Positions 7,565 through 30,284 of a stretch of DNA of 41,674 bases are shown one piece after another. This DNA is from a virus: positions 1 through 41,674 of the IMG/VR virus record IMGVR_UViG_3300024177_000023, one strand, 5' to 3'. Position numbers and translations under genes: made by a program. Position 1 is the stretch's first letter. Every line of letters begins with the position of its first letter. The notes under the pieces were generated by a model. That model had not been told where the DNA came from and did not search any database. It saw only the letters and a program-made list of their open reading frames with translations.

Positions 7565-9226
7565 ATGGTTGAAGATACCGCAACGTCCACGTCCACAACG
7601 AACACGATGGCAAATAGCGGCGCGTTCGATGCCGCTCCCGCTCCACCGCCAGAACAGCAGATGATGCCAGCTTCTGCGGAATTGACGCCGCCTTCGCCGG
7701 CAGCGCAACCCGCGCCCATTCTTTCCGGCTTGCAACCTGCAACTCAACCGCCTCCGGCAGCTGGAACGCCTTCCGTCTGGAAAAATATCGTCATGGGAGC
7801 GATCTACGGCCTCGCAGGTTCAGGCGGAGCCAAGACTTTCGGGGCTGGGGCGGGCGGAGGGGCGGCAAGCGTACTAGCGCAAGAGCAGCTCCAGAAAGAG
7901 AACGCTGCTCGACAGGCAGCGCAGCAGGCTGACGTTCAATTCAAATCCGTGCAAGCCGCGCACATGATTGCGGAGACGGCCGTTCTGAACAGGCAGCTTT
8001 CCACGATGGATGAGGACCACCAGCAGAAGGTATTCGACAACGGTCTTGAGTCCATGAAGAGTTTGCAGAGCATGGGCTTCACGCCCTACTCCATCACGGA
8101 TGATGCAGAGGATGAAGCAGGCGGAAGCGCACACGCGGCAATGAAGGACGCAACCAATAAGCTGGGTGGTGTTCCGGCAACGCTCAGCGTTCCTCTTGGC
8201 CCGCACAAGTGGGCGCATTTCAACTTGCAGCAGGGGGCGCAAACCGGGACGGCCATCAAGATTATCAATGATTTCAACTCCCGCTTCGGGCAGCCCACTG
8301 TCCAAGGTGTGGCTCCTCCGAAACCGGGGAGCGCCGAAGAGCAGGCGCAGATCAAAACAGCCAAGGATGATTGGGACTTACTGCACACACCCACGTCCGA
8401 TGACGGCGAATTGCAGAACATGCAAAACAAGCTGGCCCTCGTCCAGAGCTTGCCCGATGACACGCCCTACAAGAAAGACACCATCGGCCTGCTTACCAAG
8501 AACATAGAAACCTCAAAGCCCTTGGCGCAATCCGTCAAGGACAAGGCGAATCAGGCTGCCGCAAACAAAGCGAAGAGCCAAAAGCAGGCCGAAATTGACA
8601 CGGAGACTAGCCCTGCGAACGTAGCGGCTCAGGCAAAACTCGCCGGGGCAAAATCTTCCGCTGAGGCCAGTGCCAAGGCTGCTGCTGACACGGCATCCGG
8701 TGAATGGAAGCCCAAAGTAACCGCCGATGAAAAGAAGAAAGCGGAACTTGCGGAGAATATCGCGGAGAACGCCACTGCGGTAAACGCCATCCTCGCCCGC
8801 CGTCCCGACCTGGTAGGTGCTGTCGCCGGGCGCTTTACGAACGCTCAGCAGATGATTGGCAACAATGACAAGGACATTTCCGCTGTAGGCAATCGCGTCC
8901 ACAATATCGCAATGGCCAACTCTGGAGTACATGGCTTCCGCTCGCAGGAAGGTGTCGAAGAGACGGAAAGGAACATCTTGAACAGTTTCAAGAACGGGCC
9001 GGATGCGGTGAAAGGTGCACTTGGCTCGAACGTAGATTCCGTGCAGACGTTCATCGACAATGCCCGGCCACCAAGCTATCAGACCCATTCATCGCAGGGC
9101 GGGGCAGGGACCTACTACCACAATAAGATTGCAGCCCCACAGCCGATTTACGCAGCGGCCCCTGGCAAGCCGCGCATGATGTCAACCGATGGAGGAAAGA
9201 CTTGGCAGACGGCACCGGCACAATAA
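7565..9226 (+). CDS. Internal virion (ejection) protein candidate 2
   Basis: The product is 553 aa with AGAGG upstream of the ATG. The N-terminus is Pro/Ala-rich and disordered (residues 1-65). A Gly-rich segment (GAIYGLAGSGGAKTFGAGAG, ~residues 75-95) could insert into membrane. Long coiled-coil stretches rich in Ala, Lys and Gln follow (residues ~100-160, 300-400). No transglycosylase or peptidase motif is seen. Size and position in the triplet suggest a DNA-ejection/internal capsid protein. Confidence 0.55.
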   Translation: MVEDTATSTSTTNTMANSGAFDAAPAPPPEQQMMPASAELTPPSPAAQPAPILSGLQPATQPPPAAGTPSVWKNIVMGAIYGLAGSGGAKTFGAGAGGGAASVLAQEQLQKENAARQAAQQADVQFKSVQAAHMIAETAVLNRQLSTMDEDHQQKVFDNGLESMKSLQSMGFTPYSITDDAEDEAGGSAHAAMKDATNKLGGVPATLSVPLGPHKWAHFNLQQGAQTGTAIKIINDFNSRFGQPTVQGVAPPKPGSAEEQAQIKTAKDDWDLLHTPTSDDGELQNMQNKLALVQSLPDDTPYKKDTIGLLTKNIETSKPLAQSVKDKANQAAANKAKSQKQAEIDTETSPANVAAQAKLAGAKSSAEASAKAAADTASGEWKPKVTADEKKKAELAENIAENATAVNAILARRPDLVGAVAGRFTNAQQMIGNNDKDISAVGNRVHNIAMANSGVHGFRSQEGVEETERNILNSFKNGPDAVKGALGSNVDSVQTFIDNARPPSYQTHSSQGGAGTYYHNKIAAPQPIYAAAPGKPRMMSTDGGKTWQTAPAQ

Positions 9227-10638
9227 CTCCTCCGCCTGGTTACACGCTTGAGACGCAGCAACCCGCTGCCAGCTCCGGCGTTACTCCGCCTCCCGGCTAC
9301 ACGATTGAAGGACAGCCGCCTGCAACGGCGTCAACAGCGCAGCCGGTTAGCGTGTTCCCCGGCTCCGCTCCTGGCGGGAATATGTACCCCGGAGCACCGC
9401 TATCGGCCAATGCGACGGCAGACATAAGCGGACCGGGAGCAATGAACGCCATTGGGAGGGGGATAACTCAATTTGGCAACGATATGTGGGACAAGCTCAC
9501 GAGCACTATCCAGCATCCCGTGGATACCGCAGAAGGAGTGCTCAAAGCAAGCCCTGCTGGGCAAGCCTACGACGCTATCAAGAACTCCGTTGCAGGCTAC
9601 CGGGCTTATGAGAATGCACGTTCGACAGGAGCTGACGTTCCTACGGCTCTCAAAGCGGCAAGCGACACCATTGAAAAGCAAACAGCTCAAGCGCAAGCGG
9701 TAAAACAGGCTGTCGAAGCCTTCAAGAAAGACCCCGGAGCGACGAGCGTAAGGGCACTGGCGCACATAGCGACAGCGGCGGCCCTAGCTTATGCAGGAGG
9801 GGCAGCCATTGACGCCGCGCCAGAGATCGCGGGCGGGGAAGAGGCCGCAGCGGGAGGGGAAGCGGCTGCGAGTACCGCTGCAAAGCCCGGACTTGTCCAG
9901 CAGGTTGTGAAGGGCGAGAAAGTCGCTCAGGCTCCTGCACAATCGGCCATGCGCGAAGGGGCGGCTGCCTCGGCAAAGGATGCTGGAGTCGAAGCTCCAG
10001 CCACAACCTCTCAGCCTATGCGCACCGTACTCGATAAGCCAATCAAAGATTTAGCGGTCAAGGAACGCGGCACCTATGACGCTATAAATGAGGCAGCGGG
10101 CGTGGACCTCAAGGACTTGTATGACCATGCTTCAGATGTAGCAGAGGCGCTTGACGACCCGGTGAATATCGTCAACCGGGACAAGCTGCAAGCTGACCTT
10201 GTGCGCACCAACATGCGAATTGGGCAGGCCGAGGACAAGGCGGCAGAAGCCGGTATCCCGCCCGATGCGCTCCAAAAAGCTAAAGCCATGACCCAGCAAC
10301 GCTATGCGATGCAAACTTTCAAACAGAAAGTCTTCAACAATGAATCAGTGGTCAGCGGGAACATGGAGCACGGCGCACCAGAGACGATTAACGTCGATTC
10401 GGCAATCAAGCAAGTGGAGAATCTCGATAAGCCATCGAAATACGCTCCTGAAGGCTCGCCTAGCCGTCTGGTGCAGGCATTGGGCGATAAGGGGGCTAAG
10501 GCGTTGAAGCAAGGTCTTTATGACGCTCAGAAGGCTGGAGAGACGGCATTGAACCGCCAGAAACTAGCGAAATGGCTTGGTGGGGGCGCTGTCGCTGGCG
10601 CTGGCACGCTTTACGAGCTACTCAAGGGGTCAAAATAA
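9202..10638 (+). CDS. Internal virion (ejection) protein candidate 3
   Basis: The product is 478 aa, starting at TTG 9202 inside the end of the previous gene, with GGAGG 7 nt upstream. The N-terminus carries a repeated PPPGYT motif (twice within 25 residues). The middle is Ala-rich and helical with a membrane-compatible segment (ALAHIATAAALAYAGGAA, ~residues 185-205). The C-terminus has another glycine-rich hydrophobic patch (GGGAVAGAGTLYELL). Third member of the ejection-like block. No enzyme motif is visible. Confidence 0.55.
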   Translation: MADGTGTITPPPGYTLETQQPAASSGVTPPPGYTIEGQPPATASTAQPVSVFPGSAPGGNMYPGAPLSANATADISGPGAMNAIGRGITQFGNDMWDKLTSTIQHPVDTAEGVLKASPAGQAYDAIKNSVAGYRAYENARSTGADVPTALKAASDTIEKQTAQAQAVKQAVEAFKKDPGATSVRALAHIATAAALAYAGGAAIDAAPEIAGGEEAAAGGEAAASTAAKPGLVQQVVKGEKVAQAPAQSAMREGAAASAKDAGVEAPATTSQPMRTVLDKPIKDLAVKERGTYDAINEAAGVDLKDLYDHASDVAEALDDPVNIVNRDKLQADLVRTNMRIGQAEDKAAEAGIPPDALQKAKAMTQQRYAMQTFKQKVFNNESVVSGNMEHGAPETINVDSAIKQVENLDKPSKYAPEGSPSRLVQALGDKGAKALKQGLYDAQKAGETALNRQKLAKWLGGGAVAGAGTLYELLKGSK

Positions 10639-24013: not shown

Positions 24014-24071
24014 TACCCAAATGTGCTCAACTCGCCACCTTAAAGTATTTTCTAGCTTTCGCTTTTTGTTC

Positions 24072-24101
24072 TTGACAAGGAAAGGTAATGGATGATAGAA
24101 A
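24072..24101 (+). promoter_or_regulatory. Promoter of the large noncoding RNA
   Basis: TTGACA (24072-24077), an 18-bp spacer, TAGAAA (24096-24101). The start would fall near 24108. No translatable, protein-like frame follows, so it appears dedicated to the RNA. Confidence 0.65.
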
Positions 24102-24154
24102 CATAGCACGCGCGGGCGCGGCAACACGAAATTTGGTTGCTTCGGTCCGAACTT

Positions 24155-24210
24155 TGGCGGCGGGGTGCCCTATACACTCCGCCACCAACCCTTATAGGGA
24201 GGGTGTTTTT
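24155..24210 (+). promoter_or_regulatory. Mutually exclusive pseudoknot and terminator at the RNA 5' end
   Basis: State A: stem TGGCG/CGCCA (24155-24159, 24180-24184) plus GGGTG/CACTC holds the 7-nt loop CCCTATA (24168-24174), which pairs perfectly with TATAGGG (24193-24199). State B: CACC..CCCT (24183-24192) pairs with AGGG..GGTG (24196-24205) and is followed by TTTTT (24206-24210), an intrinsic terminator. The two use the same bases, so only one can form. This looks like an attenuator deciding between a ~100-nt and a ~720-nt transcript. Confidence 0.55.
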
Positions 24211-24465
24211 GTTAGTTTCCCACCACAACCTAAAAGGCTGGTTCACGGCCTCGACTCCAGAACCAATCGAGGGTGCAGTGCTTCGGCTTGTTTGTGCTTC
24301 GCTCGCAGTGGTGCGCGGAGAGATTCCGCGACAGAAAGACGTGTTGCTCTACTTCGTCCGACTGGTCTCGGATTCGTTTCGGCAGCACGTTTTAGAAGTG
24401 AATCAGCGAGCGGAGCACCGACAGGCCGATGGCTGGTTTTCTGCTGTTCGATGGATGCTTGCACA

Positions 24466-24536
24466 TCGGGAAGTCGGGGGTTCGATGCCTCCTTCACGCC
24501 AAAAGCGTGTTATAGCTCAGCTGGTAGAGTGCCCGA
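24466..24536 (+). tRNA. Circularly permuted tRNA-like domain inside the large RNA
   Basis: Order is 3' half then 5' half. 3' half: TCGGG (24466-24470, anticodon stem), variable loop AAGTC, T arm GGGGG-TTCGATG-CCTCC (24476-24492), acceptor strand TTCACGC (24493-24499). Linker CAAAA. 5' half: GCGTG (24505-24509), D arm GCTC-AGCTGGTA-GAGT (24515-24530), CCCGA (24532-24536). CCCGA pairs with TCGGG and GCGTG with CACGC. The anticodon loop is missing: the stem continues through an internal loop into the 10-bp helix GGATGCTTGC/GCAAGCATCC. The acceptor has two U-U mismatches and one extra base before the usual TA, so it may be a tRNA mimic rather than a decoding tRNA. Anticodon cannot be read. Confidence 0.6.
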
Positions 24537-24813
24537 CGAGCTCGCAAGCATCCTTCCGGCAGCAGAGCCAGCAACAGTTCATCCAAGCAAAACCGCTACT
24601 CCCGAAAGGGTTCTCCAGGCAACGGCGCAGTACTCGATCTGCGGTTGGAGATTGGCGGCTCGTTCGTGCAGTGCCAAATGCAGCCTTGTCAAAACAATCC
24701 GTCCATCTGAGAGTGGCACCGGATACACGGCCCGGAGCAGAAATTTGCTCGGCGTTGGGCCTAAATGCCAAGGTCTCTCAATCTGGCATTGGGTTGCTCT
24801 TGGTGCTGCACCG

Positions 24814-24826
24814 ACGAGCCGTTTTT
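24814..24826 (+). terminator. 3' closing helix and terminator of the large RNA
   Basis: ACGAGCCG (24814-24821) is the exact complement of CGGCTCGT (24656-24663), enclosing the whole 3' domain, and is followed directly by TTTTT (24822-24826). A long-range closing helix with a U-run gives a defined 3' end. The ~105 bases after it, up to 24932, hold no gene I can support. Confidence 0.6.
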
Positions 24827-24932
24827 CTCCCTCTACCACTACGTCCTGGTCATACGCTCATAAGTCTCTAAAAGCGGCGGAGGGGAAGCTAGGAGGTGCT
24901 GCAAGGCAAGATGAGCAGGGAAGTGGTGTCTC

Positions 24933-25211
24933 TTGCAGGTGAACTGGCCAGATATCCCGCAACTGTGGTCTATCTTGTCAGTCTGCGAGGACCGCTGGCG
25001 CTTCACGTACCCTGGGGTTGACATTGAGCGAGAAGTGCTAAAGATGGGCGAGTGGCTAGAAGCGAATCCCCGGCGCAAGCCCAGGAACTACAAGCGATTC
25101 GCTGTAAACTGGCTCGCCAGCGCACACGGGAGGCTACTGGAGGCCCAAGTCAGAGCATTGGCACAGAGAGAGCAGGACCGCGTTGACAGCGCTGTGGGGA
25201 GGTTACGATGA
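24933..25211 (+). CDS. Small protein with a replisome-organiser-like helical motif
   Basis: The start is uncertain: TTG 24933 or GTG 24939. The product is ~90 aa. The stretch KMGEWLEANPRRKPRNYKRF followed by AVNWLAS matches a helix pair frequent at the C-termini of phage replication-initiation/DnaT-like proteins and in small orphan phage proteins. No helicase-loader domain is present. It lies directly after the large RNA. Confidence 0.55.
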   Translation: MQVNWPDIPQLWSILSVCEDRWRFTYPGVDIEREVLKMGEWLEANPRRKPRNYKRFAVNWLASAHGRLLEAQVRALAQREQDRVDSAVGRLR

Positions 25212-29213: not shown

Positions 29214-29911
29214 TAGCGACGGCTAGACAGGTGAAGTATGGCGGGCACGAATTCACGGTTGAGCCTGAACCGGCAGACTTCTGGGGCTGGGTTGAGGAAG
29301 GGCGCTACGATAGCGAATGGCGAGCATTACAAGCGCATCTAAGGCCGGAACATACATTCTTGGACTTGGGAGCATGGGTGGGCAGTCACAGCCTCCTGGC
29401 GGGCAAGATTTGCAAGCGAGTGATCGCGGTTGAGCCTGACCCGATGGCTAATCTAATACTCCTTGGGAATTTGCAGCAAAATGACAGCAATTGGAGCCTG
29501 ATTCAGACCGCAATCAGCGATAAATCAGGAGTACTCGAACTCAGTTCAGGATGTTTAGGGGCGAGCACTACACGAGCCAATCCAGCGGCAGGTGAGGGCA
29601 TAGGCGAATCACAAATCTTCATTCAATCAGAGTGTATGACTCTCGCCCAACTCATTGAGGATATGCAAGCTGAAGCGCCATTCTTCATCAAGATGGACGT
29701 GGAGGGCAGCGAGGAGCAAATCCTTAGCGATCTCACGTTCTTCGAGCAGCACAAGCCCACGCTCTACATAGAACTACATCCCTTCTGGTGGCACGACGAG
29801 GCAGCGACTTGGCAGAAAATAGCTAAGTTATCATGCCTTTACAATCACACGCTCGACAAGCTCGGCAACACAGCACAAGCCGGTGCGCGGGAGCTAATCC
29901 TTGCAGATTGA
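29210..29911 (+). CDS. FkbM-family SAM-dependent methyltransferase
   Basis: The product is 233 aa. The SAM-binding motif I is FLDLGAWVGSHSL (residues 50-62), followed by VIAVEPDPMANLILLGNL (acidic E75) and FIKMDVEGSEEQIL (159-172), the FkbM hallmark. FkbM enzymes O-methylate sugars or small molecules. In a phage it could modify host surface glycans or a virion glycan, fitting the glycosyltransferase at 31669. Confidence 0.85.
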   Translation: MIATARQVKYGGHEFTVEPEPADFWGWVEEGRYDSEWRALQAHLRPEHTFLDLGAWVGSHSLLAGKICKRVIAVEPDPMANLILLGNLQQNDSNWSLIQTAISDKSGVLELSSGCLGASTTRANPAAGEGIGESQIFIQSECMTLAQLIEDMQAEAPFFIKMDVEGSEEQILSDLTFFEQHKPTLYIELHPFWWHDEAATWQKIAKLSCLYNHTLDKLGNTAQAGARELILAD

Positions 29912-30284
29912 AGAATTTGTGATTCCAGGAGCTGGCCAGCAATTCAAAGGCAATGATTTCAGAGATTTGCGCAAGTCCGGCGTGTATCTATTCATGCTCG
30001 AAGGCAAACCGCTCTACATCGGCACGGGAAGAATGTTACTGGGGCGTGCGAGCGGGAAGCATAAACAAGCCGAAGAAGCCATCGCGCAATGCGATACAGT
30101 CCTGCTCTACCCATGCCTCAGCTGGTTCATCGCACAGCAATTAGAGACATTGCTTATCAACAAGCTACAGCCCAAGTATAACAAACGAAAGAAGCTCGGG
30201 ATACTGAGCGGGATTCTCGGTCATTCTAAAGGACATGCAAGGAAATATCAGCGAGAATTGGCCATGGCGCTCGAAGGAAAATAA
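29901..30284 (+). CDS. GIY-YIG endonuclease 2
   Basis: TTG 29901 is the likely start, overlapping the previous stop. SGVYLFMLEGKPLYIGTG is the GIY-YIG core, followed by R (RMLLGRAS) and the catalytic E in QQLETLLINKLQPKYN. The C-terminus is basic (KYNKRKK, SKGHARKYQRE). It is diverged from the first GIY-YIG protein. Two such nucleases flanking an FkbM gene suggest a mobile cassette. Confidence 0.75.
   Translation: MQIEEFVIPGAGQQFKGNDFRDLRKSGVYLFMLEGKPLYIGTGRMLLGRASGKHKQAEEAIAQCDTVLLYPCLSWFIAQQLETLLINKLQPKYNKRKKLGILSGILGHSKGHARKYQRELAMALEGK

Follow-up and report, generated by a model that had tools for sequence, protein, structure and literature searches.

Positions 24466-24536 of the window (the whole 41,674-nt stretch of viral DNA that was analysed) most probably carry a YrlA-type tRNA-mimic domain situated on a phage non-coding RNA. 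It is best read as a divergent mimic of the YrlA type, possibly one that is independent of Ro60; splicing is not needed. Read from the letters, the domain is tRNA-like and circularly permuted, with a T arm, an acceptor stem and a D arm mounted on a long helix. This same arm order is found in the tRNA-like domain of YrlA, a bacterial Y RNA and a precedent that was absent from an earlier sequence-only reading of this DNA.

Anatomy of the tRNA-like domain

When the sequence was re-read, the tRNA-like anatomy claimed in that reading for 24466-24536 proved right to the base, and the matching strands of both stems broken by the permutation were present (TCGGG with CCCGA and CACGC with GCGTG). The lower helix was also as described, with two mismatches and two G-U pairs; 20 of its 22 positions pair, the mismatches being C-C at 24449/24557 and U-U at 24452/24554. 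The elements are as follows.

24441-24462, + strand: lower helix, 5′ strand, paired with 24544-24565
24466-24470, + strand: anticodon-like stem, strand 1 (TCGGG), pairing with 24532-24536 in a register that covaries in other phage modules
24476-24492, + strand: T arm, stem GGGGG/CCTCC (24476-24480/24488-24492), loop TTCGATG
24493-24511, + strand: acceptor-like hairpin, CACGC (24495-24499) with GCGTG (24505-24509), loop CAAAA; the equivalent stem covaries in 18 phage modules
24515-24530, + strand: D arm, GCTC (24515-24518) with GAGT (24527-24530), loop AGCTGGTA, G18-G19 equivalents present
24532-24536, + strand: anticodon-like stem, strand 2 (CCCGA)
24544-24565, + strand: lower helix, 3′ strand, partner of 24441-24462

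The variable loop is AAGTC, two further U-U oppositions lie at the base of the acceptor-like hairpin, and the T and D loops contain the usual residues. The equivalents of the bases that make the elbow contacts (U8-A14, G15-C48, G18-G19, T54-T55-C56, and A58) were found in the expected positions, as judged from sequence rather than structure. Below the anticodon-like stem there is a 3 × 7-nt internal loop, followed by the long helix. ARAGORN detected neither a tRNA nor a tmRNA in the window; neither arm can thus be completed by a conventional 5′ or 3′ half, and the permuted pairing proposed in the earlier reading has no such competitor there.

The folding energy of the segment 24425-24580 was 4 sd lower than that of shuffled sequences. 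Against a YrlA-type reading, the computed minimum-energy fold (-56.8) differs from the exact tRNA-like structure (-52.7) by 4.1 kcal/mol; the lower helix, the acceptor hairpin, and a T-arm hairpin persist in it, but the D-arm side is paired otherwise.

A row of hairpins shared with one relative

The tRNA-like domain forms the tip of the second unit in a row of hairpins, which is described by the following features.

24014-24932, + strand: non-coding span with the hairpin row, between two small genes; no coding signal in six frames
24277-24577, + strand: block common to the window and the related contig G001, 298 of 301 positions identical (99%), holding unit 1 and the tRNA-like unit 2
24283-24429, + strand: hairpin unit 1, without a tRNA-like apex; arms 24283-24306 and 24406-24429, inverted repeat of 83% over 24 nt, fold z -5.9
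24647-24830, + strand: hairpin unit 3; arms 24647-24685 and 24792-24830, sequence not conserved in G001

Over 24090-24930 the fold z was -6.2. The 3′ arm of unit 3 matches unit 1 in 12 of 14 nt (GCACCGAC..GCCG), and the basal strands of these two units are similar, with compensating differences. That the domain is embedded in a larger RNA, as had been proposed, was borne out only in part, by the block of about 300 nt closely common with G001: G001 is the only relative, its left flank is about 76% identical, and its right flank is unalignable. The next gene is 91-92% identical, and the backbone of the two phages is shared as a mosaic. An additional hairpin in G001 (689-832 in L003) has a basal stem like that of unit 2, and the last hairpin of G001 differs.

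The Salmonella Y RNA operon yrlB-yrlA places a unit that has a tRNA-like tip next to one that does not. By analogy, the hairpin row, seen in two phages only, recalls such operons mixing tipped and untipped units.

The possibility that the span encodes a protein was rejected, since none of the six frames departed from flat codon use and searches of Pfam and PHROG gave no match. Two overlapping frames on the + strand (24088-24942 and 24137-24871) run without a stop in both phages, which occurred in at most 0.1% of shuffles. A blastn search for relatives of the hairpin row among phages and plasmids returned just tRNA-sized or short chance matches, and a pattern derived from its 5′ part had G001 as its sole match. 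A pattern combining the basal stem and a T arm matched at least 119 stretches, and a regular-expression screen of the matches listed showed no permuted module of this kind. A search for the host through the terminase gave no match in genomes. Separately, positions 24281-24307, spanning the 5′ arm of unit 1, are about 90% complementary to 30047-30075 (- strand) in the mRNA of the ORF 29901-30284, whose product appears GIY-YIG nuclease-like by eye and has no Pfam match.

Related phage modules and their neighbouring genes

Viral contigs were scanned with a pattern in which a D arm comes after a T arm, which retrieved tandem tRNA genes and isolated modules; after removal of overlaps with ARAGORN tRNAs, 23 modules were left, the window and G001 among them. 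Eighteen modules from other phage contigs were aligned, and the window was kept out of this covariation set. L015, L078, and L104 were excluded for having no acceptor hairpin, so that selection gives a slight advantage to the acceptor-stem statistic but not to that of the anticodon-like stem. L107 was included by hand despite an ARAGORN overlap because it adjoins a TROVE gene. L078 was also removed as a candidate Ro60-linked permuted module, its match being the joint between two long tRNA-like hits. These two hits (L078:1067-1318, - strand) are non-permuted, about 124 nt and hence longer than a normal tRNA, and they adjoin a TROVE gene.

Both broken stems covaried strongly in the related phage modules. 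When the permuted structure was imposed on the 18 modules, 94.1% of cells were paired, compared to 61.3% in shuffled alignments, and double-sided changes were counted in 124 cells, compared to 38 in shuffles, all counts ignoring kinship among rows. Shifting the partner by one column brought pairing down to 41-43%. Double-sided changes were present at every pair of the two broken stems, the acceptor stem being 98% and the anticodon-like stem 78% paired. In a separate test, strands from the same phage paired far better than strands exchanged between phages; for the anticodon-like stem, which was not a selection criterion, the mean helix score was 3.64 versus 2.28 (0 of 2000 shuffles). The suggestion of a tRNA mimic on a larger RNA is supported, and related phage modules passed the half-stem covariation test that the earlier reading had set; for the window's own element, one near-identical relative is known (G001).

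At relaxed thresholds, the best Rfam match of the window domain was YrlA (RF02553), aligned over the full-length model with 27.7 bits and E=0.0014 in a 1-kb search, and the match recurred on a repeat Rfam search in both the window and G001. At the gathering cut-offs, no Rfam family reached its threshold in the window, that of YrlA being 69 bits. The Ro60-linked phage modules that were scored (L103, L131, and L177) reached just 33.6-35.7 bits, so a YrlA score under the cut-off is normal for phage copies. Modules without Ro60 (L054 and L100) scored 33-35 bits, and the window lies somewhat under these other phage modules (33-36 bits). As all of them miss the cut-off, a low Rfam score alone is no argument against a YrlA-type reading. 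Among the properties of YrlA, the permuted tRNA-like domain (T arm, acceptor hairpin, and D arm) on a basal stem was found in the window, and a score above 69 bits was not. No AAAACUUG-type strand occurred in the YrlA alignment, so that by this sequence test the basal stem shows no Ro60-binding site, and no linked Ro60 (Rsr/TROVE) gene was detected in the window or G001.

With a covariance model built from the 18 other phage modules, the window excluded, its score was 57.2 bits. With this model, the joints of ordinary tandem tRNAs can also reach 63 bits; the value is thus not decisive, and the argument depends on the absence of tRNA halves at the flanks. Isolation of the module, the 20-bp helix, and conservation carry the case for the window domain. 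One alternative is a relic joint of two tandem tRNA genes whose outer halves were lost, in favour of which tandem joints can equal the module in model score. We consider it highly improbable: no pairing would be expected in a relic between the acceptor strands, between the anticodon-like strands, or in the 20-bp flanking helix, and the block is 99% conserved beside diverged flanks.

A Ro60 (TROVE) gene was located close to the module in 8 of the 18 module contigs, and a Ro60-like DUF2828/DUF7788 gene in 3 of 18. TROVE was present in 7 of 17 clean-module contigs (L078 set aside) versus 1 of 30 tandem-tRNA control contigs, a comparison that supports linkage without measuring a rate because the controls include short contigs. 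In all seven, the module lies on the same strand as the gene, 90-490 nt away; L070, the eighth TROVE contig, was found in a later search. TROVE genes are frequent in viral contigs: four phage TROVE query proteins had 551 relatives, and many of the 80 that were fetched (L139-L218) have between one and three permuted modules on their upstream side. Permuted tRNA mimics are frequent neighbours of phage Ro60 genes, and the current Rfam cut-off misses them. Ro60-linked modules carry GTTACTTC on the 5′ side of the core (36/44, comprising 31 exact and 5 with one mismatch) and share a TTTTCTCC-like sequence on its 3′ side. Both are missing from the window, where the best matches are 3 and 4 mismatches away. 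Searches for TROVE, DUF2828, and vWA genes detected none in the window, and those for TROVE and DUF2828 detected none in G001 either. An isolated module with no detected Ro60-type gene was seen in six other contigs (L026, L036, L045, L054, L060, and L100). In L060, a gene for a MazF/PemK-like protein (8535-9280) ends about 116 nt upstream of the isolated permuted module.

The DUF2828/DUF7788 genes stand about 0.45-0.65 kb from the modules in three contigs.

L041:1001-2419: DUF2828/DUF7788 gene beside a permuted module
L071:10334-11800, - strand: DUF2828/DUF7788 gene beside a permuted module
L114:6373-7815: DUF2828/DUF7788 gene beside a permuted module

By hhalign, the C-terminal half of the DUF2828/DUF7788 protein matches the von Willebrand part of TROVE with a probability of 98%. 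Of 80 fetched DUF2828 loci, 7 have a module upstream of the gene, three of these being near-identical copies of one phage. Besides those of L041, L071, and L114, the DUF2828/DUF7788 proteins noted beside permuted modules are in L344, L345, L365, and L397. The RNAs linked to DUF2828 share, by eye, another motif 5′ of the core, ACAGCAAC. In the literature searched, no report linked DUF2828/DUF7788 to Y RNAs. In L009, the DUF2828 gene is about 22 kb from the module (isolated and permuted, 605-656); nearby, at 1-280, a sub-threshold permuted-tmRNA match (39.1 bits) overlaps a standard tmRNA gene.

Function, alternatives and comparison with known systems

We considered that a YrlA-type RNA of this kind, if the element is transcribed, would fold directly and unspliced into a long helix capped by the anticodon-like stem, the T arm, the loop-closed acceptor stem, and the D arm, with the arms docking like a tRNA elbow. 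Proteins that read the tRNA body could recognize the domain, as TruB, DusA, and PNPase do for YrlA, and the long helix might act as a handle for another partner. A site for RNase P at the domain is at most conceivable. Because neither Ro60 nor the Ro60-linked motifs are detectable in this phage, its RNA probably either uses a Ro60-type protein of the host or acts alone, for instance as a decoy or adaptor aimed at enzymes that work on tRNA or break down RNA. We tentatively put forward, as a reading that may well prove wrong, a Ro60-independent branch in which the tRNA mimic stands off the Ro60 platform, in a row of hairpins, and serves as a decoy or adaptor for host enzymes that act on tRNA or degrade RNA.

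Within the YrlA-type reading, the element could be a true Ro60 Y RNA whose partner, Ro60 (Rsr) or a DUF2828 protein, comes from the host or from a part of the phage outside the contig. Such a gene lies beside the module in 11 of 18 comparable phage contigs, and the record, classed as linear, may be incomplete; however, the gene is absent from the window and G001, the motifs of Ro60-linked RNAs are not there, and the lower stem runs as a nearly unbroken helix that lacks the internal loop seen in the Rfam consensus, which leaves this version rather doubtful. It is similarly unlikely, though worth considering, that the RNA works without Ro60 as a decoy tRNA, directed against host defences that cut tRNAs or against other enzymes that bind them. 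For YrlA of Salmonella, a role as a competitive inhibitor has been put forward (PMC7790460), and the six contigs with isolated modules and no detectable Ro60-type gene point the same way, although some of them are short or have the module near the contig end. With no anticodon loop, moreover, the RNA could capture an anticodon nuclease only through its tRNA body.

The earlier reading had also offered a permuted tRNA needing splicing, or the product of an unknown self-splicing system. The arm order fits a permuted tRNA gene, and if the internal loop were cut at CGAG and ACA, a loop of 7 nt could remain; its sequence would be CGAGACA, without U33. No anticodon loop is present, CCA is not encoded, the CAAAA loop leaves no room for it between the acceptor strands, and there is no bulge-helix-bulge. 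By ARAGORN and by sequence, joining the halves did not give a tRNA with an anticodon loop and a CCA end. The anticodon-like stem runs instead into the internal loop and long helix, as in YrlA, and comparable modules are linked to Ro60-type genes; we therefore regard maturation by splicing or by a permuted-intron system as very improbable. A permuted tmRNA, whose gene would likewise carry the 3′ acceptor strand before the 5′ strand, is the least likely reading and practically negligible: ARAGORN found no tmRNA, no permuted or standard tmRNA model matched at E=10 save a 7.6-bit T-arm match of the betaproteobacterial model, and no tag frame was found.

Among known systems, YrlA is one of the closest. 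It consists of a tRNA-like domain and a basal stem, DusA and TruB modify it, and through it Rsr is tethered to PNPase (PMC8394870); the structure of Salmonella YrlA is 6CU1 (cited in PMC8394870). The window shares with YrlA (RF02553) the T arm, loop-closed acceptor stem, and D arm in the same order on a basal stem, and a significant if low full-length match, but differs in its score under the cut-off, its place in a hairpin row, and a phage that has no Ro60 gene, Ro60-type internal loop, or motif. Ro60 has been described in jumbo phages (PMC7824862, PMC7765460), and a Y RNA beside a Ro60 gene was suggested for Listeria phage CKA15 (PMC12282133). The phage Y RNAs beside Ro60 genes have the same permuted core, sometimes two or three in a row, whereas the window lacks Ro60, GTTACTTC, and TTTTCTCC. 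The permuted tRNA genes of red algae and archaea resemble the window domain in arm order, but the latter has no CCA, anticodon loop, or splicing motif; permuted tmRNA (RF04321) also places the 3′ acceptor strand first, but the domain has neither a match to its model nor a tag-coding part.

Bacterial Y RNAs are known mainly as partners of Ro60. A phage copy that has the tRNA mimic while no Ro60 is detectable would uncouple the two functions and make it simple to study the mimic's own role. The comparison adds that phage mimics covary convincingly and that they also occur beside a second Ro60-like family, DUF2828/DUF7788.
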